Below, piece after piece: positions 14,234 through 50,031 of a stretch of DNA of 61,550 nt. Position 1 is the first letter of the stretch. Every line of letters begins with the position of its first letter. The position numbers and the translations under genes are program-made. Origin of the DNA: a virus; the IMG/VR virus record IMGVR_UViG_3300027833_001904, positions 1 to 61,550 of that record. One strand, written 5' to 3'. The notes under the pieces were generated by a model, which was not told the origin of the DNA, did not search any database, and saw only the letters and a list, made by a program, of their open reading frames with translations.

Positions 14234-15238
14234 ATGCTTTACTCAACCATAAACAGTCTTCAATTTGATTTAAACGTTACTTGCAATGCATATTGCCCTG
14301 GTTGCCATAGACATACAATGGTAAACGGCGAGATGTATATGAATCCATTCCTACCATTTAATACTAGTCTTAATATTGATATAGTAGAACGTGTAATGGA
14401 AAACCCAAGACTTAGCGATAATGTAGAAGTAGACTTTGTAGGATTAGTAGGCGAGCCTATTGCTCATCAACAATTTCTAGAGATTATAGATATTATCTAT
14501 AAGCATAGACCAAATGCAAGAGTTAATATTCACACAAATGGTGGATTGCGTTCCGTAGAGTTCTTTACACAGCTTGCTAAAAAATTAAAAGATAAATCTC
14601 ATCAAGTGCAATTTTCAATCGATGGATTAGAAGATACAAACAGTTTATATCGTGTAGGTGTAAATTGGGATAAAGTAATGGAAAATCTACAAGCATTTAT
14701 AGATGCTGGTGGTCGTGCAGTATGGAAGTTTTTGCTTTTTCCATACAATAAACATCAAACAGAAGAAGCAAGACAATTGGCATTTTCAATGGGAGTTAAA
14801 AACTTTCGTCCAGAGAGAAATAGAGACGAAGGACAAGAACTGTATACACGTTATATGAAAGCATATAAAAAGTTTCACCCAAAAACACTAGGTGAAAAAG
14901 GCCATGCACAGGACAAAGGATATGACATAAATCAGTTTAACGAATCCCAAGGCATTGCAAATAGATGCTTTGACGAAGATGCAATTTATATAAATTACGA
15001 AGGCGTAGTATTACCATGTTGTATGTTTAATTCTGGATTAACAGATGAATCATATATGAAAGAGATGGTCCCATATATTAAAGGAAATACTTGCCATCAA
15101 AATGATGATGAAAATTGGAATAGCCTATATCATAATACATTAGAAGATGTTATGAATAATAGCTGGTGGGACAAGTTATATGGCGATTTAGACACAACTC
15201 CATGCACCGTTTGTGTGCATTCTTGCGGAATTCATTAA
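14234..15238 (+). CDS. Radical SAM/SPASM enzyme, copy 1
   Basis: 334 residues. The [4Fe-4S]-AdoMet motif is CNAYCPGC (Cys 17, 21, 24). Then GLVGEPIAH, a HTNGG strand and FSIDGLEDTN are typical of the core barrel. The C-terminal SPASM/twitch part has CFDEDAIYINYEGVVLPCC and CTVCVHSCG, enough Cys for auxiliary clusters. It is closely similar to the gene at 17907 and more distantly to those at 36607 and 33679. SPASM enzymes mostly modify peptides or proteins; no precursor peptide is evident beside it. Expression seems late and leaderless. Confidence 0.9.
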   Translation: MLYSTINSLQFDLNVTCNAYCPGCHRHTMVNGEMYMNPFLPFNTSLNIDIVERVMENPRLSDNVEVDFVGLVGEPIAHQQFLEIIDIIYKHRPNARVNIHTNGGLRSVEFFTQLAKKLKDKSHQVQFSIDGLEDTNSLYRVGVNWDKVMENLQAFIDAGGRAVWKFLLFPYNKHQTEEARQLAFSMGVKNFRPERNRDEGQELYTRYMKAYKKFHPKTLGEKGHAQDKGYDINQFNESQGIANRCFDEDAIYINYEGVVLPCCMFNSGLTDESYMKEMVPYIKGNTCHQNDDENWNSLYHNTLEDVMNNSWWDKLYGDLDTTPCTVCVHSCGIH

Positions 15239-17906: not shown

Positions 17907-18905
17907 ATGCTTTATAAGAAAATAGATACAGTTGAGTTCGATCTTAACACAGTATGCAATAGTTATTGTCCGCCTTGTCATAGATATACAGTCCAAGACG
18001 GTGAGCTATTTCATAACCCACATGTAAAATTAGGTGTTAACTTAGAGTTAGACGTAATTGAGCGAGTGTTTGAGAACAGTAGAATTGCAGATGATTGTTT
18101 TGTCGATCTTGTAGGATTAGTAGGCGAACCAATTGCACACCCAAAGTTTATGGAAATTATAGATATTATCTATAAGCACAAACCTCATGCTGGAATAAAC
18201 TTACATACAAATGGTGGATTACGCACTGAAAAAATGTTCTATGATTTAGGCAAAAAGTTTAACAAGCACAGTTGGGTTAAATTTTCAATAGATGGATTAG
18301 AAGATACAAATGGTATATATCGTATTGGAGTAGACTATAATAAAGTAGTTGCAAATATGCGAGCATTCATAGATGGCGGAGGCCGTGCAATATGGAAATT
18401 TGTTACATTTCCGTGGAATGAACATCAAGTAGAACAAGCCGAAGCCTTAGCAAAAGAATATGGTTGCTATAAATTTCAACAAGATTGGGATGTGCATGAC
18501 CAAGATATACATGGATACATGGCTGCTGCACAGAAGAAAATTAATAAAAAGGTAGCGGCAGTAAGTGGTGGAGATGTTGAATTACCTGAGTTTGAATCAT
18601 ACACAATAGAAGATCGATGCTTTACATATAAAAAGATATATGTAAATGCACATGGATACGTTATCCCATGTTGTATGTTTAACGGTGCATTTACATATGT
18701 TAATTATAGAGAACAAACACTGAATTTTATTAAAGAAGGCAGAGACGAATACTGGAACAGTTTATATCATAATGACTTAGAAAGTATAATGAGTGATACA
18801 TGGTGGCAAAAACTAAAAGACAGTTTTGATGGCAATGCCTGTAACGTGTGTGTCAATGCGTGTAGTAATAATTCTGTAATTAAAAATGAACGCTATTTTG
18901 ATTGA
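17907..18905 (+). CDS. Radical SAM/SPASM enzyme, copy 2
   Basis: 332 residues. Cluster motif CNSYCPPC (Cys 17, 21, 24), GLVGEPIAHP, HTNGG, FSIDGLEDTNG, and C-terminal CFTYKKIYVNAHGYVIPCC and CNVCVNACS for auxiliary clusters. It is a close paralogue of the 14234 gene; the two probably act on related or paired substrates. A 2OG oxygenase gene follows shortly after. Confidence 0.9.
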   Translation: MLYKKIDTVEFDLNTVCNSYCPPCHRYTVQDGELFHNPHVKLGVNLELDVIERVFENSRIADDCFVDLVGLVGEPIAHPKFMEIIDIIYKHKPHAGINLHTNGGLRTEKMFYDLGKKFNKHSWVKFSIDGLEDTNGIYRIGVDYNKVVANMRAFIDGGGRAIWKFVTFPWNEHQVEQAEALAKEYGCYKFQQDWDVHDQDIHGYMAAAQKKINKKVAAVSGGDVELPEFESYTIEDRCFTYKKIYVNAHGYVIPCCMFNGAFTYVNYREQTLNFIKEGRDEYWNSLYHNDLESIMSDTWWQKLKDSFDGNACNVCVNACSNNSVIKNERYFD

Positions 18906-19185: not shown

Positions 19186-20025
19186 ATGTATAGTAAGCAA
19201 GAATTACTAGATAAAAAACAAGCTGCCAACCTTGCATTAGAAAAATCAGAGGCACTAGAAACAAAATTTGCAGATAGATTTGAGATGGCAAGTTCATTGT
19301 TTGCAGTGTTAGACAAGCAACTTTTTATTGAATGTAATGATCTTGAACCAAACGATTCATATAGAATTGAAACATGGAAAGATGAAAATGTTCCAGATAA
19401 AAGTTATTCCTTGAATCACATTGGACCTGTGTTTGGATTTGATATTGATACTATGACAGGACCAGAAAGTTGGTATGATGAAGAATGTGGTGTAGATGAT
19501 TATGTGTTACGTAGAAAATGTTACATATATGATTGGACTGCAGAAAAATTAAAAGTAAACTTTCCAGAACTAACATATTTTACAGATTTACATAAAGAGT
19601 TTGTTCCAGTATTGCAACACTATTATAATGAATGTTTTGAGGATCAACATATAGATATTGCAAAAACGTTGCATAAACTTATGGTTATTGAATACTCGCA
19701 TCCAACTGCAAACGCTGGAACTATTATAGAACATAAAAAACACAATACAGATAGATTTGGCGATATACATTGTGACGAAACATTAGGTGGATTACACTTA
19801 GGTGAAAACGTAGTAGAATTTTATATACAGAATCACCTAACAAAAGAACGTAACTATGTAAGCGAATTATCAGAGAATAACACATTATGGTTCTTTGGTG
19901 AATTTAGTGAACGCAGTGGGTGGCAACCTAGTATGCATGGAATGAAACACAATCCAAGTGATGATACTTGGAAAAGATATAGTATAATTTTTGACTTACA
20001 AGCAAGATATAATGGAGAAGAATAA
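19186..20025 (+). CDS. 2OG-Fe(II) oxygenase-like protein
   Basis: 279 residues. [11 protein letters not shown] supplies the HxD pair, a later MHGMKHNPS the distal His, and [10 protein letters not shown] the Arg of the 2-oxoglutarate site; the [15 protein letters not shown] block between them is typical of phage members. The N-terminus is a coiled-coil-like helix. It follows a radical SAM gene, the same pairing seen at 5.9-12 kb and 33.7 kb. Its SD-bearing tail (GGAGAAG) also serves clpP one base downstream. Confidence 0.7.
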
Positions 20026-20652: not shown

Positions 20653-21348
20653 ATGAAAATACACGACATATTAGAAAGACTCATAGACGAAGGTCCAAAC
20701 GATCCTGCTATATTTAAAGCTATATTTCTTGCTGGTGGCCCAGGCTCTGGCAAGAGTTACGTAGCAAGTAAAATATTATCAGGACTAGGCCTTAAGCCTG
20801 TTAACAGTGACGATGTGTATGAATACCTAGCTAACAAACATGATGTTGATTTAGGTAATCCAGACGAAGTTGCTAGTGATAAAGGTCAAGAAGCTAGAAA
20901 TCGTGCAAAACAACTTACTGATAAAAGACAAAATATATACATTGATGGTCGCCTCGGATTAATTATTGATGGAACAGGAAAAGACGTTCAAAAAGTAAAA
21001 GAACAAACTGTAAAATTAAAAAGTCTAGGATATGATTGTGCAATGGTATTTGTTAATACTAATCTACAAGTAGCACAAGAACGTAATGGCGATCGTAAAA
21101 GAAAACTTCCGGCAGAAATGGTGCAAACTATGTGGCGTCAAGTTCAAGAAAATATTATGAAGTTTCAGCAAGTATTTGGTGCAAAAGACTTCCACGTAGT
21201 AGACAACAGTGGCGGGCTAGAAGACCCAGAACGTAAAGAAAACTTTGATAATGTATACAAGAGTGTTAGAGCATTTGCTTCATCACCCCCATCTAGTCAC
21301 CATGCTAAAAAGTGGCAAGATGATGCAAAGAATAAAAATACCACTTAA
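20653..21348 (+). CDS. P-loop kinase, zeta-toxin/polynucleotide-kinase-like
   Basis: 231 residues. Walker A GGPGSGKS at 28-35, then NSDDVYEYLA in the position where zeta-like kinases place the substrate Asp, and a LIIDGTGKD strand plus VNTNLQVAQERNGDRKRKLP lid with several Arg. The C-terminal 30 residues look disordered. Zeta toxins phosphorylate UDP-GlcNAc; phage relatives more often act on nucleic-acid ends. The call is fold-level. Leaderless late expression. Confidence 0.75.
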   Translation: MKIHDILERLIDEGPNDPAIFKAIFLAGGPGSGKSYVASKILSGLGLKPVNSDDVYEYLANKHDVDLGNPDEVASDKGQEARNRAKQLTDKRQNIYIDGRLGLIIDGTGKDVQKVKEQTVKLKSLGYDCAMVFVNTNLQVAQERNGDRKRKLPAEMVQTMWRQVQENIMKFQQVFGAKDFHVVDNSGGLEDPERKENFDNVYKSVRAFASSPPSSHHAKKWQDDAKNKNTT

Positions 21349-21777: not shown

Positions 21778-23361
21778 ATGATAAGAATTTTTGGGTTTTG
21801 GACAATCTTTATAGCATTAGTAATTAGTGCAATAGCAGCCTATTATTCTATTATTGGATTAATTGCAATTTTTGCCGCAGCAGCAGTTCCTGTTATTATA
21901 ATGGGAACAGCATTAGAAATTGGTAAAATCACATCAGCTATTTGGTTACACTTAAAGTGGAAGACTGGTAAATGGCTTATTAAAGGATACTTAGTATTTG
22001 CAGTTGCATTGCTTATGTTCATTACAAGCATGGGTATCTTTGGATTCTTATCAAAAGCACACGTAGAACAAAATGCATCAATGTTAGAAGGCCAAGCACA
22101 GCTAGAACGTATTGAAGTAGAAATTACACGTGCTGAAGGTGAGATTACACGTGCTGAAGGTAAAATTGAAAAACTTTCAACAGCAGACACAAGCACAGAT
22201 GATGGCATACAAGAAAAGATTAGAGTAGCAGAATTAAGTATAACAACTGTATACGATAGATTAAAAGATGATGTTGAGTTTACGCAAGACTCACTAGATC
22301 AAGCAGCGGCACCATACTTAAAACAAGCCGAACAAGCAGATGCTACACTAGAAAAAATGAATACTTATGCAGAAACAAATAACATAACAGCATTACAAGG
22401 TTTAGTAGGTGCTGCACAAGACGGAAGAATGGGATCTAAAACAGCAAAACTTGTTTCAGAATTCCGTGATAAAGTTGAAAAGAATAGAATGATGGCACTA
22501 TTCCAACTACAAAAAATAAGAGAAAATAGCCAAGACGAAACTAAAGATCTTAGAGATGCTGCAGATAGAACAATAGCACAAACTAATAAACTTATTAATA
22601 GATTGCGTGAGCAATTAGGAACAGCAACAGACAATGATGTTGAACCCAAGATACAAGAATTACAAGTTAAAATTAAAGACTTTGAACTAAATTTAGATAC
22701 ACTGTTTGAACAGAAATATGCCATCGAAGCTGAAGGTAGAGAACTAGAAGCAGATGTAGGTCCTGTAAAATATATTGCAGAACTGGTATATGGTGAAGAG
22801 GCAGATAGAGATTCACTTGAAGATGCAGTTAGATGGGTAATACTACTACTTGTTATAGTATTTGATCCACTTGCAATTGTATTGGTTATTTCAGGAATAT
22901 CTCTTGTTGAAGAATACCCTAGAAAAAAGAGGATTCGCAATGAAGATAAAATTACTGAAACAACACCAAAGACTGACCTGGTGGAGAAAACTGTCAAAGA
23001 AACGAAAGCCCGTAAGGAACCTAAAAGCCCAAAAGTAACCCCTAACCAACCAGAACCTAGTTCTGACGCAATAGAATTTAAAGGTGTAGTATACGAACCC
23101 ACAGATTATGCATACCACCGCATTAAAGATCAGATAGATGCCAACGATAAACATCGCAAAATTATCAGTAACCAAACTAAGGTAAATAATATTGTAGAAA
23201 GAATGGAACTTGACGAGAAGACAACAGATGTTGATATTGTTAAGAAACGTTTAGAACAAATGTTTGAAGAAGATAATGCAAAAGCAGAGTTACTAACAAA
23301 TGCCGATACTAAAACAATACATGAAGTATTTAAAGATATTATTAAGGACACTAAGAAATAG
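21778..23361 (+). CDS. Large membrane-anchored coiled-coil protein
   Basis: 527 residues. Three transmembrane helices lie in the first 95 residues, then a long coiled coil (about 100-330, including a duplicated EITRAEG heptad), another transmembrane helix near 360-380 (WVILLLVIVFDPLAIVLVI), then a Lys/Glu/Pro-rich cytoplasmic tail. The layout resembles phage membrane proteins of unknown role in T4-like genomes. It might organise the envelope or replication compartment. It sits between the nuclease and ClpX. Confidence 0.7.
   Translation: MIRIFGFWTIFIALVISAIAAYYSIIGLIAIFAAAAVPVIIMGTALEIGKITSAIWLHLKWKTGKWLIKGYLVFAVALLMFITSMGIFGFLSKAHVEQNASMLEGQAQLERIEVEITRAEGEITRAEGKIEKLSTADTSTDDGIQEKIRVAELSITTVYDRLKDDVEFTQDSLDQAAAPYLKQAEQADATLEKMNTYAETNNITALQGLVGAAQDGRMGSKTAKLVSEFRDKVEKNRMMALFQLQKIRENSQDETKDLRDAADRTIAQTNKLINRLREQLGTATDNDVEPKIQELQVKIKDFELNLDTLFEQKYAIEAEGRELEADVGPVKYIAELVYGEEADRDSLEDAVRWVILLLVIVFDPLAIVLVISGISLVEEYPRKKRIRNEDKITETTPKTDLVEKTVKETKARKEPKSPKVTPNQPEPSSDAIEFKGVVYEPTDYAYHRIKDQIDANDKHRKIISNQTKVNNIVERMELDEKTTDVDIVKKRLEQMFEEDNAKAELLTNADTKTIHEVFKDIIKDTKK
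22120..22161 (+). repeat. 21-bp tandem repeat in the coiled-coil gene
   Basis: Two copies of GARATTACACGTGCTGAAGG-type 21-mers with one mismatch, encoding EITRAEG twice. It adds a heptad to the coiled coil without breaking frame; a recent duplication. Confidence 0.85.
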
Positions 23362-23364
23362 TAG

Positions 23365-23817
23365 ATGAACTTAAACGACAATAGCAGTTATACGGTCACT
23401 GCACCAGATTTATTCCTACAATTAAACGGATTAAATGTTTTAATTACAAGCACAAACAAAGAGTTAATTGATAACTTCAAATTAATATTTGAAAAATTTA
23501 TTAGATCAAGCGTAGTTTTTAATGTGCAACAACGAGTAACAAAACCAGATAGTTTGCCGTGGATGTGGCACGTTAGCAGAACATGTGAATATATGTTAGT
23601 TGACTTAGATACATGTGCATGGGAAGATATAATGGCTGCGTTATTAAAGCGAATGGATGATAATCATTCTGTAATTTTTTATAGTGAAAAGAAAGTAAGA
23701 CGAGAAGCAATAAAATTGATTAACGCAACCAGCAACTATATTATAATTAACAACTTAGAAGAATTAAATAAATTCTTAGACATAGATACTCAATACCCAG
23801 GCATGCCAGATGAGTAA
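23365..23817 (+). CDS. Unknown protein, 150 aa
   Basis: Alternating strands and helices (LNVLITSTNKELIDNF, YMLVDLDTCAWEDIM, HSVIFYSEKK, NYIIINNLEELNKF) suggest a Rossmann-like or receiver-like alpha/beta fold. No motif confirms an activity. It overlaps clpX by eight bases, so the two are co-translated. Confidence 0.6.
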   Translation: MNLNDNSSYTVTAPDLFLQLNGLNVLITSTNKELIDNFKLIFEKFIRSSVVFNVQQRVTKPDSLPWMWHVSRTCEYMLVDLDTCAWEDIMAALLKRMDDNHSVIFYSEKKVRREAIKLINATSNYIIINNLEELNKFLDIDTQYPGMPDE

Positions 23818-25009
23818 TCCATACTGTAATTTTTGCGGTAAAAATAAACATCAAACCAAAAAACTATTAGCTGGAAATGATGGAACACACATTTGTGATG
23901 GATGTGTGGATCTTTGTCATGACATATTAATTAAAGAAAAAGCTAAAGCATCAGCTCAACCAGAGTCTGTAACACGCCTTAAGCTACCTACACCGTTAGA
24001 ATTACACGAACACTTAAATAGATTCGTCATTGGGCAAAACACCGCTAAAAAGACGCTTAGTGTTGCAGTATACAACCATTACAAGCGGATTAAGAACACT
24101 ACACAAGTAAAGTTACAAAAGAATAATGTGCTTATAGCAGGTCCTACTGGAACAGGCAAAACACTTATTGCTTCTACATTGGCATCATATTTAGATGTGC
24201 CATTTGTAGTTACAGATGCAACAACAATAACTGAAAGCGGATATGCAGGTGATGACACAGAAGTATTACTAGACAAACTATTCCAAGCTGCTGATTATGA
24301 TGTAGAAAAAGCACAGTTGGGTATTATATACGTAGACGAGATTGATAAAAAAGCAAAACGAAATGACATGGTAAGTTTAAGTCGTGATGTGTCAGGCGAA
24401 GGTGTGCAACAAAGTTTGCTAAAGCTAATGGAAGGCACAGTAGTAACAGTTCCAAACAAACCTCAAGCCAATCCAGAAAAAGTAGATATAGATACTACTA
24501 ACATATTGTTTATAGTAGGCGGAGCATTTATAGGATTATCAGATCTTGTAAAACAACGTATAGGCCAAAGTAAAATAGGCTTTAATGATAACAAACAGGA
24601 ACAATTAGATAATTGGGAAATGCATTTACAAACACGTGATCTAGTTCAGTATGGACTTATTCCAGAATTTGTAGGAAGATTACCTAGTGTTAATGTTTTA
24701 CACGAATTAACCAAAGAAGAACTAGTGAAAATACTTACAGAACCACAAGATTCAATAATAGATCAAATAAAAGTGCTTTTTTCACTTGACAAAATACAAA
24801 TAGAGTTTAATATAAAAGCATTAGAGCAAATTGCCTCTATTGCAATAGAACAAGACCTCGGTGCAAGAGGATTAAGAAAGATACTGGATTCGGCACTTGT
24901 GGAAACACAATACCAGTTACCACAACTAAGAGAAAGCGGAGTGAAAAAAATTATTATAACAGATGAAACTATTGTCAATGGCCATCCACCGTTAATGATA
25001 AAAGGGTAA
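23810..25009 (+). CDS. clpX: ATP-dependent protease ATP-binding subunit ClpX
   Basis: 399 residues, near the bacterial length. N-terminal zinc domain with Cys 6, 9, 29, 32. AAA module: Walker A GPTGTGKT, pore loop GYAGDD, Walker B IIYVDEID, sensor region GGAFIGL, and the ClpP-binding loop motif IGF in KIGFNDNKQE. C-terminal QDLGARGLRKILD with sensor-2 Arg. All parts needed to unfold substrates and dock on ClpP are present. ALAA-ending tmRNA tags, as encoded at 36.5 kb, are the classic substrates. IF-3 follows after one base. Confidence 0.97.
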   Translation: MSNPYCNFCGKNKHQTKKLLAGNDGTHICDGCVDLCHDILIKEKAKASAQPESVTRLKLPTPLELHEHLNRFVIGQNTAKKTLSVAVYNHYKRIKNTTQVKLQKNNVLIAGPTGTGKTLIASTLASYLDVPFVVTDATTITESGYAGDDTEVLLDKLFQAADYDVEKAQLGIIYVDEIDKKAKRNDMVSLSRDVSGEGVQQSLLKLMEGTVVTVPNKPQANPEKVDIDTTNILFIVGGAFIGLSDLVKQRIGQSKIGFNDNKQEQLDNWEMHLQTRDLVQYGLIPEFVGRLPSVNVLHELTKEELVKILTEPQDSIIDQIKVLFSLDKIQIEFNIKALEQIASIAIEQDLGARGLRKILDSALVETQYQLPQLRESGVKKIIITDETIVNGHPPLMIKG

Positions 25010-25010
25010 G

Positions 25011-25532
25011 ATGAAACAGAAAAATAATCATAACAACCCAAGAAGCCACATCACTGCAAATGAGAAGATCAGAGCAAAAGATGTTAGAGTAATAGCTAGG
25101 GATAGCGAATCCGTAGTAATGCCATTAAGTAAAGCATTACAACAAGCAAGGAGCCAGTATTTAGATTTAATACTTATTAATCCTAAAGCTGAACCACCGT
25201 TATGTAGAATAATGGAAATAAATAAGTTTTTGTATGAACAAAAACAAAAAGAGAAAGCAGAGAAAAAACGCCAACGTGAAAACATAGTAGATCAAAAAGA
25301 AATACGAATGGGCTTAAACATTGATCAAAATGATATGCAAACTAAGGCAAATCATGCTAAGAAGTTTTTAGAACAAAAAGCAAAAGTCACGGTGACAATT
25401 GTTTTAAAAGGCCGCGAAAGAGGCAAACAAGACATGGCAAGAGATCTATTGAATAGCTTCGCTGAATTATGCGAAGTTGAGTATGAAACGATAAATAGTC
25501 AAAACAATAGAGTAATTGGACGTGTGAAATAG
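25011..25532 (+). CDS. infC: Translation initiation factor IF-3
   Basis: 173 residues. N-domain NEKIRAKDVRVIARDSE with PPLCRIMEINKFLYE, then a Lys/Glu linker helix, and a C-domain KEIRMGLNIDQNDMQTK...FLEQKAKVTVTIVLKGRER. This is a complete two-domain IF-3, which blocks premature subunit joining and proofreads start codons. Phage IF-3 is unusual. Next to bS21 and with leaderless messages predicted in this phage, it may tune initiation towards phage mRNAs. That functional link is inference. Confidence 0.92.
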   Translation: MKQKNNHNNPRSHITANEKIRAKDVRVIARDSESVVMPLSKALQQARSQYLDLILINPKAEPPLCRIMEINKFLYEQKQKEKAEKKRQRENIVDQKEIRMGLNIDQNDMQTKANHAKKFLEQKAKVTVTIVLKGRERGKQDMARDLLNSFAELCEVEYETINSQNNRVIGRVK

Positions 25533-25539
25533 GTAACAA

Positions 25540-25815
25540 ATGAAAAAATATAATAATAATTCTCGAGATAGAAACAGAGATAACAGAGAAGATAAAGATT
25601 ACGGATTGTCCGTTGAAGTGAGAAACAACAACGTAGACCAAGCAATGCGTAAGTTAAAAAAGAAAATAATGAATGATGGCATGTTGCAAGAATTACGCGA
25701 ACGCCAACATTTTGTAAGTAATACAGAAAAACGATTAAAGGCCGAGGCTGCGGCTCGTGCCAGACATCGTAAACGTATAGCTAGCGATAAAATAGATAAA
25801 CCAAGGCTATACTAA
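25540..25815 (+). CDS. rpsU: Ribosomal protein bS21
   Basis: 91 residues. The core LSVEVRNNNVDQAMRKLKKKIMND...LRERQHFVSNTEKRL and the basic C-terminal AAARARHRKR match bS21, with a 20-residue Arg/Asn-rich N-terminal extension. bS21 sits by the anti-Shine-Dalgarno end of 16S rRNA. bS21 genes are known in pelagic phages; here it is coupled to IF-3, seven bases apart. It probably replaces host bS21 on ribosomes. Confidence 0.93.
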   Translation: MKKYNNNSRDRNRDNREDKDYGLSVEVRNNNVDQAMRKLKKKIMNDGMLQELRERQHFVSNTEKRLKAEAAARARHRKRIASDKIDKPRLY

Positions 25816-25900: not shown

Positions 25901-26326
25901 ATGAAAACATTAACAACACTTGATCTGCAGAAGATCGCACCATATGCCGTTGGATTTGACAGAATAATTTCTGACATGTTTCAATATGCAGACAATAACG
26001 TAGCAAGCACAGGCTACCCACCATATAACATTCGCAAAGAAGGTGACAAGTTTCAAATTGAAATTGCACTAGCTGGTGTTACTAAAGAAGATTTAGAAAT
26101 CAATTTAGAAGAAGGGCAGCTAACAATCTCACATGACCCAGAGGAAACTCAAGTCGATGTAGAGTATTTGCACAAAGGTATTGCACAACGCAAGTTCAAA
26201 CGAGTTTGGACGCTGAGTGATGATGTAGTCGTAAACGGTGCTCAAATGGAAAACGGAATGCTTTATGTAGAATTAGAGCGTATTGTTCCAGAAGAGAAAA
26301 AAGCACGTTCGATTAAAATTAAATAA
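25901..26326 (+). CDS. hsp20: Small heat-shock protein (Hsp20/IbpA type)
   Basis: 141 residues. The alpha-crystallin domain spans about 35-125 (KFQIEIALAGVTKEDLEINLEEGQL, then the FKRVWTLSDDV and NGMLYVELERIVPEEKK strands), with a short N-terminal arm and a C-terminal basic tail RSIKIK. It holds unfolding proteins for refolding. T4-like marine phages commonly encode one. Next genes are ClpS and, elsewhere, DnaJ and Clp proteins. Confidence 0.93.
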   Translation: MKTLTTLDLQKIAPYAVGFDRIISDMFQYADNNVASTGYPPYNIRKEGDKFQIEIALAGVTKEDLEINLEEGQLTISHDPEETQVDVEYLHKGIAQRKFKRVWTLSDDVVVNGAQMENGMLYVELERIVPEEKKARSIKIK

Positions 26327-26391: not shown

Positions 26392-26697
26392 ATGTCACAA
26401 GAAGAAATAGCAACAGCAGAAAAGAAAAAAACAGCATTAAAGTCACCTAATAAATATCATGTGGTATTTTTAAATGATAATGTAACTCCAATGGAATACG
26501 TTATACAGGTGCTAGTGGCATTCTTTGGTAAAGGCCCTGATGAAGCAAATATAATTACATTAGAGATCCACGAAAAAGGAAGATCTATCGCAGGTTCATA
26601 TAGCTATGAAGTAGCTGAACAAAAATGCATAGAAACAGTCACAGATGCAAGAAAACATAGCTACCCGCTTGATGTAGTTATGGAAGAAACTACTTAA
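26392..26697 (+). CDS. clpS: ClpS adaptor (N-degron recognin)
   Basis: 101 residues with a disordered N-terminus and the ClpS core YHVVFLNDNVTPMEYVIQVL, then HEKGRSIAGSYSYEVAEQK. The Asn-Asp pair and TPMEYV helix that bind N-terminal destabilising residues are present. ClpS hands N-degron substrates to ClpA, encoded at 47722. ClpS plus ClpA plus ClpP on one phage genome would give a self-contained N-degron pathway. Confidence 0.94.
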   Translation: MSQEEIATAEKKKTALKSPNKYHVVFLNDNVTPMEYVIQVLVAFFGKGPDEANIITLEIHEKGRSIAGSYSYEVAEQKCIETVTDARKHSYPLDVVMEETT

Positions 26698-28456: not shown

Positions 28457-28695
28457 TGTTACATACAGTAGAATCATTATTAGAAAAAATTAATGCAATG
28501 CACTCAAAAGCATTATTACTACACAGACTTCGTAATCAATATTCAGAAGCATCAGGAAAAACATACGACCATGCGGAGTGTCAAGCCCTTATCGATGATA
28601 TTCAATACATGGCTAAACTTATTTCAAACGATAAGCAAGGCGATGAGATTAAAACCGAAATGGAATACACGAAATTTTTAAAGGATGAAAAATGA
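28456..28695 (+). CDS. Small helical protein, 79 aa
   Basis: All-helical, acidic ([19 protein letters not shown], then [21 protein letters not shown]). GGAGG ribosome site inside the end of the exonuclease gene; it overlaps the GMP reductase gene by four bases. Unknown. Confidence 0.6.
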
Positions 28696-29813
28696 GAATA
28701 GACCAGGATATTAAACTAGACTACAGTGATGTGTTAATTCGCCCAAAACGTAGCACACTTAAAAGTCGTAGTCAAGTAAGACTTGAACGCAAGTTTAAAT
28801 TTAGAAATAGCAGGCACGAATACGAAGGTATTCCTATTATGGCTGCTAACATGGACGGTGTTGGAACATTTGCACTAGCAGATACACTAGCCCAACAAAG
28901 TATGTTTACATGTTTAGTAAAAACATATTCAGTAGAAAAACTTGTAGAATACTTTGATAAAGGTCTTCAAATCAGAACAGAACATGTTGCTATGAGTATT
29001 GGCACAAGTTGGGAAGACTTTGACAAATTAACAAAAGTTTGTAAATTGAGTAGTGGATTAAAGTATGTATGCATGGATATTGCAAATGGTTATAGTGATC
29101 ACTTTGCACAGCATGTAAGGAAAGTGCGTGATGCATTTCCTAATTTAATAATTATAGCAGGTAATGTAGTTACCGGAGAAATGACAGAGGAGTTAATACT
29201 TGCAGGAGCAGATATCATTAAAGTTGGAATCGGACCAGGAAGCGTCTGCACAACAAGAATTCAAACAGGAGTCGGGTATCCGCAACTTAGTGCAGTCATT
29301 GAGTGTGCAGATGCGGCACATGGGCTTGGCGGACATATTATCGCTGATGGGGGCTGTAACTCTAGTGGTGATGTGGCTAAAGCATTTGCTGGCGGCGCCG
29401 ATTTTGTAATGCTAGGCGGTATGCTTGCAGGACACAATGAAGGTGGTGGCGATGTTATTACAAAATATTATGAAACAACTGAACTTGTATACGAAATAGG
29501 TTCGCACTTAGATAAGCATACACGTAAGATTGAAACAAAACAATTTGTAGCGTTCTACGGTATGAGTTCAGATGCAGCAAATACAAAACACTTTGGTGGA
29601 CTAAAAGACTATCGTGCAAGCGAAGGTCGAGAAGTATTAGTTCCATACCGAGGAGATGTTAAAGACACAATTCAAAGTATATTGGGTGGTATTAGATCAA
29701 CTTGCACATATTCAGGTGCAATGAAACTCAAACAACTTAGTAAATGCACTACGTTCGTTCGTGTTAACAATCAGTTTAACAGAACATACGAAAGCACAAC
29801 AACCAAAATATAA
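28692..29813 (+). CDS. guaC: GMP reductase
   Basis: 373 residues (E. coli GuaC 347). [11 protein letters not shown] with the catalytic Cys at 186, [29 protein letters not shown] and [14 protein letters not shown] are those of GMP reductase rather than IMP dehydrogenase, and there is no CBS insert. It reduces GMP to IMP with NADPH. For a phage this would shift purines from G to A, in line with its AT-rich genome and ribonucleotide reductase gene. Confidence 0.92.
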
Positions 29814-34572: not shown

Positions 34573-35787
34573 ATGACATCTCCAACATACATGGATTATT
34601 CAGCAACAACACCGGTAGACCACCGAGTTGCAGAGAAAATGGCAGAGTGCCTATCAATAGAAGGCACCTTTGGAAACCCGGCATCTCGCTCACATTATTA
34701 TGGGTGGCAAGCCGAAGCGGCAGTAGACAAAGCACGTAAACAAGTAGCAGATTTAGTAGGAGCAGATCCTAAAGAAATAGTATGGACATCTGGTGCTACC
34801 GAATCAAACAACTTAGCACTTAAAGGTATTGCACACTTTTATAAAAAGCGTGGCAATCATATTATTACGCTAAAAACAGAACACAAGGCAATACTAGATA
34901 CTTGCCGTCAACTAGAGCGTGAAGGATTTGAAGTTACATACATGAGTCCATTACCTAGTGGACTATTAGACATTGAAGAATTAAAAGCTACAATACGAGA
35001 AGATACAATACTAGCTTCATTTATGCATGTTAATAATGAGATTGGTGTTATACAAGACTTACAAGTTATTGGTGATATTTGCAGAGAACGTAAAGTATTC
35101 TTTCATGTTGATGCATCACAATCAGTTGGTAAACTTCCAATAAACTTAACAGAACTTCCAGTTGACTTAATGAGTTTTTCAGCACACAAGATATATGGGC
35201 CAAAAGGAATGGGAGCTCTTTATGTATCACGCAAGCCACGAGTTAGACTTGAGGCGCAGATGCATGGTGGTGGACACGAACGTGGAATGCGATCAGGCAC
35301 ATTAGCTACACATCAAATTGTTGGCATGGGCGAAGCATTTGCAATTGCACAAGAAATGATGGCAGACGAAGAAGTTAGAACACGTGGACTTAGAGATAGG
35401 TTATACGCTGGCTTCTCTGACATGGAAGAAGTAAAAGTAAATGGCGATATGGAACAACGTATTGGCAATAACTTAAATATTAGTTTTAATCATGTAGAAG
35501 GCGAATCGCTAATGATGGCAATAAACGGCATTGCAGTATCATCAGGATCAGCATGCACATCAGCAAGTTTAGAACCTTCTTACGTTCTTAGAGCAATAGG
35601 ATTACCAGATGAATTATCTGCTAGTTCAATACGTTTTAGTGTAGGACGCTTTACAACAGAAAAAGATGTTGACAATGCAATTACACTTGTTAGACAAAAA
35701 GTAGAAAAATTAAGAGAACTATCGCCACTATGGGATATGTATAAAGATGGAATTGATTTAAACACAGTAGTATGGGCTGCTCATTAG
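34573..35787 (+). CDS. iscS: Cysteine desulfurase IscS
   Basis: 404 residues, the same length as E. coli IscS, with key residues at the same numbers: His104 (KTEHK), PLP Lys206 (SAHKIYGPK) and the persulfide Cys328 in [17 protein letters not shown]. It removes sulfur from cysteine for Fe-S assembly and tRNA thiolation. iscU follows 29 bp later. The five radical SAM proteins in this window are the obvious customers. Confidence 0.96.
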
Positions 35788-35816
35788 AGTAGTCTTAAAT
35801 AATATAGGATAAGATT

Positions 35817-36227
35817 ATGGCATATTCAGACAAAGTAATGGATCATTATGAGAACCCACGTAATGTAGGTAAGTTTGATCCCAAAGAAAGTAATATTGGA
35901 ACAGGAATGGTTGGAGCTCCTGCTTGCGGTGATGTAATGAGATTACAAATTCAAGTAGAAGATGGTATTATTACTGATGCTAAATTTAAAACATATGGTT
36001 GTGGTAGTGCAATTGCAAGTAGCAGTTTACTAACTACAATGGTAAAAGGTATGAATTTAGAAGAAGCTGGTGCAATCCAAAACATGGACCTTGCAGATGA
36101 ACTTGCATTACCTCCAGTTAAGATTCACTGTAGTGTATTAGCCGAAGATGCAATTAAATCTGCAATAGCAGATTATCAAGGCAAAAACCCAGTGCCAGAA
36201 GGCGCCAATTATTTTGAAATTAAATAA
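35817..36227 (+). CDS. iscU: Fe-S cluster scaffold IscU
   Basis: 136 residues. All ligands are present: Cys37 with Asp39 (PACGD), Cys62 (YGCGSA), His104-Cys105 (KIHCSV), and the LPPVK motif (98-102) by which the HscA chaperone binds IscU. The phage brings no HscA in this window, so a host or distant phage chaperone would be needed. The C-terminus has a slightly longer acidic tail than the E. coli protein. Confidence 0.95.
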   Translation: MAYSDKVMDHYENPRNVGKFDPKESNIGTGMVGAPACGDVMRLQIQVEDGIITDAKFKTYGCGSAIASSSLLTTMVKGMNLEEAGAIQNMDLADELALPPVKIHCSVLAEDAIKSAIADYQGKNPVPEGANYFEIK

Positions 36228-36230
36228 AGG

Positions 36231-36259
36231 TTGACATTTTATACACTTTCGTGTATAAA
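36231..36259 (+). promoter_or_regulatory. tmRNA promoter, TTGACA-17-TATAAA
   Basis: Consensus -35 with 17-bp spacing; predicted start near 36266, just ahead of the acceptor piece. Confidence 0.82.
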
Positions 36260-36265
36260 TAACAT

Positions 36266-36590
36266 TGTAACGTTGAAGCGATTTGACGACTATACTGGAC
36301 CTCGGGGCAGTACCGAGCAGCTCCACCAAAAACATACTAGTGTCCAGTTAAGTTTGGAACACATCTGATAAAGTGGCTAGTATGTTTTTGATGGGGCTGA
36401 ACTAGGATCGACAGGTAGGATAGATGAGTGGAGTTACCGGGATGTAAGCGCCGTTACCGCGAACAAACTTTATAATTGCAAATAACAATTATGCGCCAGA
36501 AATGGCATTAGCAGCCTAGAGTTGCTATGAGGTAACTATACCTTATTACCCAAACTAGTAGAAAGGGTGTCTTAGGGCACCCTTTTTTGA
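36266..36590 (+). ncRNA. ssrA: Circularly permuted two-piece tmRNA
   Basis: The acceptor part (about 36268-36328) comes first: T-arm CTCGG-GGCAGTA-CCGAG, then CAGCTCC-ACCA. The usual 5-prime end GGGGCTG (36393-36399) comes after it and pairs with CAGCTCC in seven pairs, with the G-U third pair of alanine RNAs. The segment between forms a 12-bp perfect stem, AAAACATACTAG with CTAGTATGTTTT (36329-36340 and 36377-36388), the processed loop of permuted pre-tmRNA. The tag frame starts at GCA 36478 and ends at TAG 36517: ANNNYAPEMALAA. Such permutation is typical of alphaproteobacteria. It rescues stalled ribosomes and tags proteins for ClpXP/ClpAP. Confidence 0.95.
36563..36588 (+). terminator. 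tmRNA terminator
   Basis: AAGGGTG-TCTTAGGG-CACCCTT with a run of six T. Confidence 0.93.
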
Positions 36591-36593
36591 GGC

Positions 36594-36601
36594 AATAAAT
36601 A
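36594..36601 (+). promoter_or_regulatory. Late box AATAAATA, leaderless geometry
   Basis: Box, five bases (CTAGC), ATG at 36607; it lies directly after the tmRNA terminator. Confidence 0.7.
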
Positions 36602-36606
36602 CTAGC

Positions 36607-37650
36607 ATGATATATTCCAAGAAGCCATTAATATTACAATTAGAATTAAGCAGTATGTGTAATGCATTATGCTTAGGCTGTCAGCGTGTCGATCCAAATA
36701 CATTTAACAGTGTGCATCCAGATATCCCTAAAAAGGAAATGATATCAGTTGATACAATACACAAATTAATGAATAGCCCAGCAATGGCTAGTATAGAGGA
36801 AATACAATTTTGTGGAACAATAGACGAGCCACTAATGCATCCAAATTTTATGGAAATACTAGATGTTATGTATGAAGCGAATCCAGAACTAGACATAGAA
36901 ATACATACAAATGCAAGTTTAAGGACAACTGAATTTTGGAGAGACCTAGCACATAAGTTATCCAAGTTTAAGAAACATAAAGTATTATTTGGCATAGATG
37001 GGTTAGTTGACACACATGAAATATATAGACAGCAAACAAATTTTGATCTCATTATTAGAAATGCAGTGCATTTTATACGTGCAGGCGGGAATGCACAATG
37101 GCAGTATATTATCTTTCCATGGAATAAACATCAAGTAGAAGAAGCACGTAACATGAGTAATAGTTTAGGATTTAAGGAATTTAAAACTCGTAATGATAGA
37201 AGTGGAGTAAGCGAAGAAGGACTTGACTTAGTAAGAGAAATACAACAAAATCCAACAACTAGTAAAGAAGGAACAGATGTGAGTATATACAATGGGTATG
37301 CGATTAGTTGTATGAATCACGATGAAGACATGTATCATGTTTCATACGATGGCAGACTTTGGCCTTGTTGCTATTTTGGTAATGTAAAGTATATGGGTCC
37401 AAAATTGTATAACGAATTTAAGCAGAGAATATTTGGAGTGTATGGCGAAGATTTTAATTTACTTACCAAACACACAGTAGAAGAAATATTAGATTCAGAT
37501 TTATATAAAAACGATTTAGTAGAGTCTTGGAATAATCCAATAGGTTGCGGCAGTAAAGATAAAGTAAATCGTTGTGCAATGTCGTGTAGTGTAAAAGCAC
37601 TTGAAACCAGACCAATTGCAACAGCACATAAAATTACAGAAAACTTTTAA
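36607..37650 (+). CDS. Radical SAM/SPASM enzyme, copy 3
   Basis: 347 residues. Cluster motif CNALCLGC (Cys 18, 22, 25), FCGTIDEPLMHP, HTNAS, FGIDGLVDTHE, FPWNKHQVEEA; C-terminal CMNHDEDMYHVSYDGRLWPCC and a final CAMSC with a further Cys in NPIGCGS. More distant from copies 1 and 2, nearer to the split copy (GRLWPCC, FCGxxxxPxMHP). Downstream of the Fe-S genes and tmRNA. Confidence 0.9.
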   Translation: MIYSKKPLILQLELSSMCNALCLGCQRVDPNTFNSVHPDIPKKEMISVDTIHKLMNSPAMASIEEIQFCGTIDEPLMHPNFMEILDVMYEANPELDIEIHTNASLRTTEFWRDLAHKLSKFKKHKVLFGIDGLVDTHEIYRQQTNFDLIIRNAVHFIRAGGNAQWQYIIFPWNKHQVEEARNMSNSLGFKEFKTRNDRSGVSEEGLDLVREIQQNPTTSKEGTDVSIYNGYAISCMNHDEDMYHVSYDGRLWPCCYFGNVKYMGPKLYNEFKQRIFGVYGEDFNLLTKHTVEEILDSDLYKNDLVESWNNPIGCGSKDKVNRCAMSCSVKALETRPIATAHKITENF

Positions 37651-46758: not shown

Positions 46759-47065
46759 TTGCACAAGTATACCAAGTATAATAGACATTAATTCTTCTCC
46801 TGTAGAAAGACCTCCACTAGTGGTCCCAAACGTAGATGAATTTACTACAAGACCTATTGAATGGACAGTTTTAACACCTGAGAATCAAGAACAAGTATTC
46901 CAGGATTTAAAAGACAGAGACATTGATGTGGTACTTTATGCAATCACTGACGATGGGTATAAAAACCTTTCGCTAAATATGGCAGATATTATTAAGTTGG
47001 TAAAACAACAAAAAGCAATAATAGCCGCCTACGAAAAGTACACCGATGAAGAAAAAACAGAATAA
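46712..47065 (+). CDS. Outer-membrane spanin-like lipoprotein (Rz1-like)
   Basis: 117 residues from the ATG with AAGGAG nine bases before. Lipobox: LLIASLAILTLSSC gives Cys17 as acylation site. A short Pro-rich stretch (SSPVERPPLVVPN) follows, then a helical domain (VLYAITDDGYKNLSLNMADIIKLVKQQKAIIAAYEKY). It is longer than Rz1 but fits as o-spanin; overlaps the i-spanin-like gene by 47 bp. Confidence 0.6.
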   Translation: MQNLLIASLAILTLSSCTSIPSIIDINSSPVERPPLVVPNVDEFTTRPIEWTVLTPENQEQVFQDLKDRDIDVVLYAITDDGYKNLSLNMADIIKLVKQQKAIIAAYEKYTDEEKTE

Positions 47066-47729
47066 CCCTTGGGATGTTTTAGGCATCCACCCAGATTCAA
47101 ATGTTGCTGAAGTAAAGAAAGCCTACAAAAGTCTTTCTATGTTACATCATCCAGATAAAGGCGGCAAGATTGCAGACTGGCTAGCAATAGCAGATGCATA
47201 CGATTCCATTACATCAAAGAATTACATTCCCATAGTCAAATCTACCAACACACAATTGCTTAATCTTAAACTTAGTTTAAAGCAGCAAATACTAGGTGTT
47301 GATGATATCATTGCAATAGAAAATGATGATGACGAAATATACATGAACGTTAAGATACCACCTGGAGCTGCATCGGGTGATAAGATACAAGTTACGCAAG
47401 ATAATAAAAAATATATAATAAATATTAAAGATAAAGCACATTCGGTCTTTACAAGACAAGGTTCTTCGCTTATAATGTATAAGAAGGTATCAGTTATAGA
47501 AGCACTAAAGAGAACACCAATACTGATAGAAGGTCCAACAGAAGAATTTATCGAAGTAGACTTGCCAGAAGAAATACAAACAGGAACTATACTAACATTG
47601 GCAAATTATGGTTTATACGATAAGAAGAAACGAAAACGAGGGAATTTAAAAATACATATACATGTAGACTTCCCTATTATTACAGACGCTAATTTACAAG
47701 AATTTATAACAAGGTTAAAAAATGACTGA
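47046..47729 (+). CDS. dnaJ: DnaJ-type co-chaperone
   Basis: 227 residues. J domain at the N-terminus (PWDVLGIHPDSNVAEVKKAYKSLSMLHHPDKGG) with HPD at 35-37. No Gly/Phe or zinc region; a C-terminal substrate-binding beta domain follows (LKQQILGVDD, VKIPPGAASGDKIQV, VSVIEALKRTPI). This is the CbpA-like reduced form. It should stimulate host DnaK. It overlaps the spanin-like gene by 20 bp and clpA by eight. Confidence 0.92.
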   Translation: MKKKQNNPWDVLGIHPDSNVAEVKKAYKSLSMLHHPDKGGKIADWLAIADAYDSITSKNYIPIVKSTNTQLLNLKLSLKQQILGVDDIIAIENDDDEIYMNVKIPPGAASGDKIQVTQDNKKYIINIKDKAHSVFTRQGSSLIMYKKVSVIEALKRTPILIEGPTEEFIEVDLPEEIQTGTILTLANYGLYDKKKRKRGNLKIHIHVDFPIITDANLQEFITRLKND

Positions 47730-50031
47730 TATTGAAAAAATTATTATTACAGCAATAGATCTAGCAAAAAGATTTAAACACGAGTATGTTACAATTGAAC
47801 ACCTAACAGCCGTTATATTAGACGACGAAGAAGTTCGTAGCATGTGTTTTGATATACAAGCAGACTTCGAAGGTATACAAGTAGCACTTATACATTACCT
47901 TCAACATGACTGTGATGAAATTGCAGTGGCAAACGGAGAAGAACCAGATCCTAAAAAGACACAAATGCTTGAAAGAGTATTTAATAGAGCATTAACACAA
48001 GCATTGTTTCAAGGTAAAAAAGCTATTGATCAGTTAGATCTGGTATTAAGTATATTGGGTGAGGATAAAAGCACAAGTTGTTTCTTTGCAGAGAGTTTAG
48101 GATTATCAAAGTCAAAAGTATTAGCATGGATGCAGGAAAGTTTTGCAGAGAACTTTAAAACAGATTACGAACAACAGCAAGCACACGAAGAAGCATACTA
48201 TACGCAGACTAAAAAGAATCAAATGGGTCCACAAACACATGTAGAGGTGTTGCAACAGTTTTGCACTAACCTATGTGAACAACATGCAGATTTTGAAGAT
48301 GTAATTGGTCGCAGAGAAGAATTAAAAGACCTTGTGCAAACAATTGCACGTAAGAAAAAATCAAACGCTATTTTAGTAGGAGCCAGTGGTGTTGGTAAAA
48401 CTGCTATTGTGCAAGGGTTATCAAAACTTATTGTAGAAGGACATGTTCCTGATATTATCAAAGGCACCACAGTGTGGGAACTTGATATGACGAAGTTAAT
48501 TGCAGGCACAAAGTATAGAGGCGACTTTGAAGAACGCATGAAACTGCTAGGCGATGCATTAATGAAATTAGACGATATTATATTATTCATTGATGAGATA
48601 CACACAGTAATTGGTGCAGGTAGCACTAGTGGTAGCTTAGACGCAGGTAACATGCTCAAACCAGCATTAAGTTCAGGCAAGCTGAAAGTTATTGGTGCAA
48701 CAACAGATGAAGAATATCGTAAGATATTTGAAAAAGAAAGTGCGTTAGCACGTAGATTTACAAAGTTAAATGTAAAAGAACCAACAGTGCAAGAAGCTAA
48801 AGAAGTCTTACGTAATACACTAGACCATTACGAAGCATTTCATGAAGTAGATATTGATATTGCATCGGCAGATTTAGCAGTAGAATTATCAGCACAGTAT
48901 ATCTTTAACAAGAAACTTCCAGACAAAGCATTTGATATTATTGATAGAGCATGTGCATTTAATAGAATATTACCAGAAGAAGAACGTGTAACCACTATTG
49001 GCATAAATGAAATTAGAGCTGAGGTTTCTAGACTAACTGGCATACCAAAAGAACACTTAGGCACAGCTGCAGAAGAACAATCAATTAAAAAACATACAGA
49101 AGTAAAAGCATTTTTAGAGAACACAGTATTTGGACAACAAGAAGCCATTGATAAAGTATCAAATGCAATTACAGTAAGTTTAGCAGGCCTAAAAGATCCA
49201 AACAAACCAGTTGCAAGTTACTTGCTTACAGGACCAACAGGTGTAGGTAAAACAGAACTTGCTAGACGTCTATCACAAGCAATGGGCATGTCAATGGTGC
49301 GTTATGATATGGCTGAATATCAAGAACGTCATAGTGTAGCAAAACTAATAGGCTCACCTCCAGGCTATGTAGGACATGGTGATGGTAAAGCAGGTGATGG
49401 TTTGCTAATTACACAATTAGAAGATAATCCAAATTGTGTATTGTTACTAGACGAAGTAGAAAAAGGACACCCAGATATTATGAGTGTTATGCTAAGTTTA
49501 CTAGATGAAGGTATAATTACAAGTAGCTCAGGCAAAAAAGTCAGTGCAAAAAATGCCATCATTATAATGACCAGTAACTTAGGTGCAAAGGATGCCTCTA
49601 TTAAGAGCATCGGATTTAACGAAGAAACATACAACGATAGTGCGGTAACAGAAGCAATTAATAACTTCTTTGCACCAGAGTTTAGAAATAGACTTGATGG
49701 TGTTATAAGATTTAATTCACTACAACCTGAAAATATGCAACGTATTGTTATAAAGTTTTTAAGACAATTAGAAGGATATGTTGAGGGCAGACACATTAAA
49801 ATTCATTGGAATAAAAATCTTTTAGCTATGTTACAAGATAAAGGATACAGTGCTACAATGGGTGCTCGTCCACTTGCACGTCTCATTAACGAACGTGTTA
49901 AACTACCACTAGCAAATTATATGATGGAAAATTTAGAATCAAAAGAGCTTGATATATCGTATGATGAGGTTACAGATAAAGTTAACATTCTGCCATCTAA
50001 AGTGATAGCAGCCAATGAACAACCAGCATAA
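47722..50031 (+). CDS. clpA: ATP-dependent protease ATP-binding subunit ClpA
   Basis: 769 residues, close to E. coli ClpA (758). N-domain helices at 1-140 (AIDLAKRFKHEYVTIEHL), D1 Walker A GASGVGKT with FIDEIHTVIGAG, pore loop KYRGDFE; D2 Walker A GPTGVGKT, GSPPGYVGHGDG pore region, LLLDEVEKGH, and the ClpP loop IGF in KSIGFNEETYN. No ClpB-type middle coiled coil, so it is a protease partner, not a disaggregase. It takes N-degron substrates from ClpS. Confidence 0.96.
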   Translation: MTDIEKIIITAIDLAKRFKHEYVTIEHLTAVILDDEEVRSMCFDIQADFEGIQVALIHYLQHDCDEIAVANGEEPDPKKTQMLERVFNRALTQALFQGKKAIDQLDLVLSILGEDKSTSCFFAESLGLSKSKVLAWMQESFAENFKTDYEQQQAHEEAYYTQTKKNQMGPQTHVEVLQQFCTNLCEQHADFEDVIGRREELKDLVQTIARKKKSNAILVGASGVGKTAIVQGLSKLIVEGHVPDIIKGTTVWELDMTKLIAGTKYRGDFEERMKLLGDALMKLDDIILFIDEIHTVIGAGSTSGSLDAGNMLKPALSSGKLKVIGATTDEEYRKIFEKESALARRFTKLNVKEPTVQEAKEVLRNTLDHYEAFHEVDIDIASADLAVELSAQYIFNKKLPDKAFDIIDRACAFNRILPEEERVTTIGINEIRAEVSRLTGIPKEHLGTAAEEQSIKKHTEVKAFLENTVFGQQEAIDKVSNAITVSLAGLKDPNKPVASYLLTGPTGVGKTELARRLSQAMGMSMVRYDMAEYQERHSVAKLIGSPPGYVGHGDGKAGDGLLITQLEDNPNCVLLLDEVEKGHPDIMSVMLSLLDEGIITSSSGKKVSAKNAIIIMTSNLGAKDASIKSIGFNEETYNDSAVTEAINNFFAPEFRNRLDGVIRFNSLQPENMQRIVIKFLRQLEGYVEGRHIKIHWNKNLLAMLQDKGYSATMGARPLARLINERVKLPLANYMMENLESKELDISYDEVTDKVNILPSKVIAANEQPA

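Follow-up and report, generated by a model that had tools for sequence, protein, structure and literature searches.

A viral gene cluster of ClpX, IF-3 and bS21 as the possible core of a "translation plus proteostasis" cassette

Here we describe three adjoining genes, for the unfoldase ClpX, the translation initiation factor IF-3 and the ribosomal protein bS21, in a marine phage, IMG/VR virus record IMGVR_UViG_3300027833_001904 (positions 1 to 61,550; this whole stretch of 61,550 nucleotides is called the window below). The order of these genes recurs in highly diverged viral loci, and the IF-3 belongs to a single, phage-only lineage that is linked to Clp genes. We propose, with a probability of roughly 0.45, that the trio is the core of a phage "translation plus proteostasis" cassette in which support for initiation led by Shine-Dalgarno (SD) sequences stands beside a separate Clp arm. 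By cassette we mean the order orf150-ClpX-IF3-bS21-Hsp20-ClpS, with ClpP, ClpA, DnaJ and a transfer-messenger RNA (tmRNA) elsewhere in the window. Such a cassette probably re-equips host ribosomes and protein turnover during infection. The core consists of:

23810-25009, + strand: ClpX, 399 amino acids, retaining the zinc finger, Walker A, Walker B and the IGF ClpP-docking loop
25011-25532, + strand: IF-3 (infC), 173 amino acids, both domains present, ATG start
25540-25815, + strand: bS21 (rpsU), 91 amino acids, with an N-terminal extension and a C-terminal RLY

All three open reading frames (ORFs) are full length and exceed the curated family cut-offs: 504 bits against 359 for the NCBIfam ClpX equivalog (TIGR00382 / PRK05342), 129 against 60 for infC (TIGR00168) and 52.4 against 28.95 for S21p (TIGR00030). 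Pfam recovers both IF3 domains, Ribosomal_S21, AAA_2 and the ClpX zinc finger. A preliminary description of this DNA had placed the genes within 1 to 7 bases of one another, which is exact to the base: ClpX and IF-3 are separated by one base (25010), IF-3 and bS21 by seven (25533-25539). Its interval, 23810-25815, holds the right genes but is too narrow, as orf150 upstream and Hsp20 and ClpS downstream belong with them.

The same description had called for a search of phages for IF-3/bS21 neighbours, and these turn out to be common. Among the best 80 of the 124 loci found by a viral IF-3 profile scan, near-copies included, bS21 lies directly downstream of IF-3 in 45, ClpX directly upstream in 40, and both in 31; within 5 kb of IF-3, ClpS is found in 54 and Hsp20 in 42. 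Counted by clusters of 60% identity (non-contaminant clusters), ClpX is directly upstream in 12/32 and bS21 directly downstream in 10/32. A corresponding scan for viral bS21, tallied over the best 80 of 158 qualifying loci, near-copies included, together with the window (n = 81), places Hsp20 nearby in 77 and ClpS in 78, ClpX in 35 and IF-3 in 27. Six relatives (L002-L007) share the window order, with a different gene replacing bS21 in L007 (51% IF-3 identity). The order persists where IF-3 identity has fallen to about 32-38%; the contigs that show it range from 10 to 450 kb and come from several groups of phages, and IF-3 or bS21 has been lost or gained among relatives while the remaining block stays intact. 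Neighbouring genes typically overlap or stand a few bases apart, which is consistent with translational coupling. One relative carrying the cassette (L050/G025) measures 204.8 kb; the contig of the window itself has 61.5 kb.

Isolated phages carry variants of the arrangement: ClpX-IF3 with bS21 a few kb further on in Atu_ph07 and Phosso, IF3-ClpS in GAP32 and XbC2, ClpX-bS21-Hsp20-ClpS with no IF-3 in the cultured Pseudomonas jumbo phages PA5oct and Paride, and ClpX-bS21-ClpS in Salicola phage SCTP-2. Gene 193 of SCTP-2 (L278:4959-5219), annotated as hypothetical, is the bS21 between ClpX and ClpS.

A chance neighbourhood is ruled out by the repetition of the gene order across highly diverged viral loci. 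Bacterial contamination of the contig is likewise rejected: rpmI and rplT are absent beside viral IF-3 loci, one mislabelled record (L011) excepted. That record, CAKLQH020000014 "Acinetobacter phage MD-2021a", carries infC, rpmI, rplT and thrS in bacterial order and is apparently a bacterial chromosome filed as phage. The window proteins gave no match to portal or terminase, so the virus status of the window rests on IMG/VR and on its relatives; terminase is present in the related records G012, G023, G024 and G025.

In a maximum-likelihood tree, all Clp-linked phage IF-3s fall into one phage-only branch (30 rows, 100/98, 200/200 bootstrap trees). This single branch apart from the bacterial IF-3s argues for a long residence of the lineage in phages. 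The bacterial side of the tree includes E. coli (a sequence that matches the PDB chain), Acinetobacter and two alphaproteobacteria, with no SAR11 IF-3; on this sampling a recent capture from an alphaproteobacterial host is not supported. A second set of phage IF-3s clusters with those of Bacteroidota and hardly ever has Clp genes nearby, and a single origin of all phage IF-3s is rejected (approximately unbiased test, p 0.0018). In the Clp-linked lineage, 28/30 rows have a Clp gene within 5 kb, versus 1/13 other phage IF-3s; these figures are descriptive and no test of significance, as the rows are related by descent and the grouping was itself taken from the first tree. Both proteins fall in phage families already in existence, PHROG 9787 for phage translation initiation factors and PHROG 21469 for phage S21. 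An extra infC also occurs on an Azospirillum plasmid (L280:1453-1986), near a tail fibre gene, and is perhaps of prophage origin.

The window IF-3 is intact. Pfam detects IF3_N (PF05198, 84.4 bits) and IF3_C (PF00707, 69.9 bits), and the AlphaFold2 model, at a mean predicted local distance difference test score (pLDDT) of 82.5, shows two domains with a linker helix, both of them complete, the C-terminal one included. The core residues R25, K/R66, Y75, K110 and R133 (E. coli numbering) are all retained. Y70 is changed to I and R168 to N, at positions where the bacterial rows have near-invariant Y and R/K, and the basic C-terminal tail is absent. E. coli infC starts with AUU, the basis of its autoregulation, which is a regulatory trait and not one of the protein family. 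The window infC begins with ATG, not AUU, and classical autoregulation is therefore probably lost; for nearly all relatives an ATG, GTG or TTG start is possible.

The window bS21 covers domain positions 1-55 of 55 of Pfam PF01165, and ahead of them carries an extension of 20-odd residues rich in N, R and D; the terminal RLY is conserved. Phage bS21 from Pelagibacter phage HTVC008M, the one case in which incorporation has been shown, takes the place of the native protein in E. coli ribosomes. The resulting ribosomes are inactive, and its authors offered as possible reasons the lack of some viral or host factor, or plain incompatibility (PMC6375957). The window bS21 may also be incorporated into ribosomes. 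A phage IF-3 encoded next upstream of bS21 is an obvious candidate for the missing factor of such ribosomes. The two-part takeover of initiation suggested in the preliminary description is supported in part: neither protein is truncated, members of either family act at the initiation site of the 30S subunit, and their genes are recurrent neighbours. The pairing is not obligatory, as there are bS21 records without IF-3 and IF-3 phages without bS21.

A match of at least 4 nt to the SD sequence precedes 34/56 window genes versus 15.9% of internal ATGs. The phage genes are SD-led, and IF-3 disfavours leaderless initiation. Additional IF-3 and bS21 should favour such SD-led mRNAs. A preference of the phage factors for leaderless mRNAs had been put forward for testing, and these counts point the other way.

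The window ClpX keeps its motor and docking loop and departs from the E. coli type at the loops that contact substrates. Its pore-1 loop reads GYAG, not GYVG (V154A), pore-2 has S in place of T199, and the RKH loop has been lost along with R228 and H230; Y153 and V202 are retained. Recognition of the ssrA tag depends critically on Y153, V154, T199, V202, R228 and H230 (PMC7652416), of which four of the six are altered or lost. With these contacts changed or gone, the substrate choice of ClpX of the window type has probably changed. The altered loops weaken any claim of ssrA use, not membership in the ClpX family, and human ClpX also deviates at these elements (PMC7652416). The RKH loop is likewise missing from ClpX of PA5oct/Paride and of SCTP-2. 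Atu_ph07, Phosso and a number of IMG/VR relatives still have it, in the form GGRK-N/H-P.

The retention of motor and docking loop alongside altered substrate loops, and the adjacency and coupling of the genes, would also suit the idea, raised in the preliminary description, that ClpX clears the host versions of IF-3 and bS21 to make way for those of the phage. We regard this as very unlikely. Phage bS21 can outcompete native bS21 unaided (PMC6375957), a cluster of 13 viral loci keeps IF-3-bS21 with no adjacent ClpX, and other loci pair ClpX with just one of the two. A broader scheme is unlikely as well. In it, the phage builds its own initiation-stage 30S subunit from bS21 and an IF-3 of a dedicated phage lineage, and the same operon supplies a ClpX with rebuilt tag-recognition loops that, released from ssrA disposal, selectively unfolds or degrades host translation or hibernation factors; if true, many phage groups would exchange the initiation machinery of their hosts in a programmed manner.

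In the cassette reading that we prefer, phage bS21 would enter host 30S subunits and phage IF-3 would work on the subunits that carry it, so that SD-led phage mRNAs could keep accurate initiation as the host cell declines. The Clp components would form a parallel and separate arm: ClpS and ClpA would process N-degron proteins and possibly tmRNA-tagged ones, and the altered ClpX would unfold or degrade substrates other than those of host ClpX. We infer that IF-3 and bS21 act jointly and that ClpX takes another range of substrates.

Several points weigh against this reading. In the phages of Chen 2022, bS21 lies beside structural genes and is linked to late expression (PMC9723584), and a conserved order can thus mean inheritance of a late operon, not physical cooperation. 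Among 13 bS21 records without an adjacent IF-3, several of them fragments, none (0/13) has IF-3 elsewhere. Some IF-3 phages lack bS21, so the two need not cooperate. The differences in IF-3 (I at Y70, N at R168 and a shortened tail) are slight, and bacteria, too, vary at some positions. Another explanation is that of uncoupled morons, in which housekeeping-type genes ride in a shared, inherited late or stress operon and each raises the dosage of a limiting host activity. It draws on the neighbours of bS21 in that late structural region, Hsp20 (127) and Clp (50 and 47) (PMC9723584), and on the single origin of the Clp-linked IF-3, by which the linkage may have arisen once. We consider it unlikely, because the order outlasts deep IF-3 divergence, a wide range of contig sizes and several phage groups, IF-3 and bS21 come and go in relatives with the rest of the block unbroken, and loss of the ClpX RKH loop is recurrent.

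The trio lies in a larger + strand block that runs from a 2-oxoglutarate (2OG)-oxygenase-like gene through ClpP, Zeta/kinase-like, nuclease-like, membrane protein and orf150 genes to ClpX and IF-3, and after IF-3 continues with bS21, Hsp20, ClpS, cupin, a nucleotidyltransferase-like gene, an exonuclease-like ORF and guanosine monophosphate (GMP) reductase. The "-like" names of the oxygenase, nuclease, nucleotidyltransferase and exonuclease were assigned by resemblance. GMP reductase (28692-29813) forms the downstream end of the block and is kept in most relatives. Scanning for promoters and terminators gave 48 promoter-like sites against 44.4 in shuffled sequence, no excess, and so does not delimit the operon. 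Further features of the block and of the window are:

19186-20025, + strand: 2OG-Fe(II) oxygenase-like protein, named by resemblance; it opens the conserved block on the upstream side and has the same place in L002-L005 and partly in L007
20027-20617, + strand: ClpP with Ser/His/Asp catalytic motifs; Pfam CLP_protease 265 bits, NCBIfam PRK00277 308 bits, above cut-off
20653-21348, + strand: Zeta-toxin/polynucleotide-kinase-like P-loop kinase; Pfam Zeta_toxin 52 bits; syntenic in relatives
21778-23361, + strand: predicted membrane / coiled-coil protein, syntenic in L002-L007 and distant relatives; nothing above cut-off in a family search
23365-23817, + strand: orf150, overlapping clpX by 8 bases, with a predicted Rossmann-type fold
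25901-26326, + strand: Hsp20 small heat shock protein with a strong SD (AAGGAG) ahead; syntenic
26392-26697, + strand: ClpS, N-degron adaptor; Pfam ClpS 91.6 bits, with N-D-x-x-T-P-M and I-H-x-x-G motifs; syntenic
36236-36610, + strand: permuted tmRNA of alphaproteobacterial type (ARAGORN; Rfam RF04321 110.8 bits, RF01849 96.5 bits)
47722-50031, + strand: ClpA-like ATPase of the double-AAA kind, docking motif SIGF; PHROG 4871

The Clp complement of the window is thus ClpA, ClpX, ClpP and ClpS. The ClpA-like ATPase matches TIGR02639 ClpA over its full length with 755 bits, under the equivalog cut-off of 993, and directly follows a DnaJ-like protein (the pair spans 47046-50031). The tmRNA encodes the tag ANNNYAPEMALAA; a tmRNA is also present in 10/19 related records, whose tags include ANDNYSPEMALAA and ANANRAPEMALAA and mostly end in ALAA. 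These genes could instead serve ribosome rescue and recycling. Degraded host mRNAs would stall ribosomes, tmRNA would tag the stalled products for destruction by ClpA/ClpX-ClpP, IF-3 would hold recycled subunits separate and thus ready for a new start, and Hsp20 and DnaJ would hold aggregates. The tmRNA in the window and its relatives, the presence of ClpP, ClpA, ClpS, Hsp20 and DnaJ together in the window, and the suggestion by Iyer 2021 of ribosome rescue for jumbo-phage IF3 (PMC7824862) all speak for this explanation, which we nevertheless hold to be rather unlikely: ClpX without its ssrA-binding elements is not the obvious disposal enzyme (ClpA could be), bS21 is left unexplained, and the tmRNA lies 11 kb from the trio, not adjacent to it.

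Directly ahead of clpX or IF-3 in relatives, orf150 is a conserved neighbour with no Pfam or PHROG match. Its AlphaFold2 model (pLDDT 87) resembles a Rossmann-type fold of the nucleoside-deoxyribosyltransferase or receiver kind: a fold search returned the deoxyribosyltransferase 4mcj at Z 11.9 and CheY-type receivers at Z ~10, and the viral nucleoside-deoxyribosyltransferase-like protein A0A6J5TA11 matches at E 1.8e-9. As the fold search is ambiguous, it is no more than an idea that orf150 might be an adaptor for ClpX like CpdR or RssB.

The gene content of the window, with its permuted tmRNA of alphaproteobacterial type, indicates that the host is probably an alphaproteobacterium. Ten tRNAs are also encoded. 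Just upstream of the tmRNA lies an iron-sulphur cluster assembly pair, IscS (725 bits, above cut-off) adjoining IscU (34573-36227), and three separate proteins (14234-15238, 17907-18905 and 36607-37650) match one radical S-adenosylmethionine (SAM) phage family, PHROG 21308.

Parts of this picture are already published, namely the proposed hijack by phage IF-3 and bS21 (PMC7162821), clpX beside IF-3 (PMC11242549) and bS21 beside Hsp20 and Clp genes (PMC9723584). A literature search that covered few subscription journals and no supplements found no paper on a ClpX-IF3-bS21 cassette, nor a description of a single Clp-linked IF-3 lineage or of altered phage ClpX loops. The huge phages of Al-Shayeb 2020 encode IF3 and bS21 (rpS21) as the window does; their bS21 has basic/aromatic N-terminal extensions, and a hijack of initiation was proposed (PMC7162821). 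Their genomes exceed 200 kb, and the main text describes neither ClpX/Clp protease nor a conserved cassette. The bS21 phages of Chen 2022 share with the window the proximity of bS21 to Hsp20 and Clp genes; the term "initiation factor" is absent from that text, and their bS21 stands beside structural genes (PMC9723584), whereas none were recognised near the window cassette. In HTVC008M (Mizuno 2019, PMC6375957), an ORF and then Hsp20 come after bS21; the stretch examined has no annotated IF-3 and no ClpX, and upstream of bS21 lies a CobS-type gene.

Another close system is Sinorhizobium jumbo phage AP-J-162, in which clpX adjoins IF-3 and bS21 is present in the genome, and whose authors already proposed in 2024 a redirection of host translation (PMC11242549). 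AP-J-162 and its relatives Phosso and Atu_ph07, which share its arrangement, differ from the window in that bS21 lies a few kb off, topoisomerase genes are next door, Hsp20 and ClpS do not follow directly within the stretches examined, and ClpX retains the GYVG and GGRKNP loops. The Wroclawvirus jumbo phages PA5oct, MIJ3 and Paride match the window in ClpX, bS21, Hsp20 and ClpS and in loss of the RKH loop; in these, ClpX and bS21 overlap by 14 bases, the IF-3 slot is empty and two extra small genes precede Hsp20. The main text of the Paride paper mentions neither S21 nor Clp. Clp genes that recur beside IF-3 and bS21, and the loss of ssrA contacts from ClpX in several lineages, raise the question of why ribosome parts should be tied to unfoldases, and the culturable phages Phosso, PA5oct and Paride provide a route to it.

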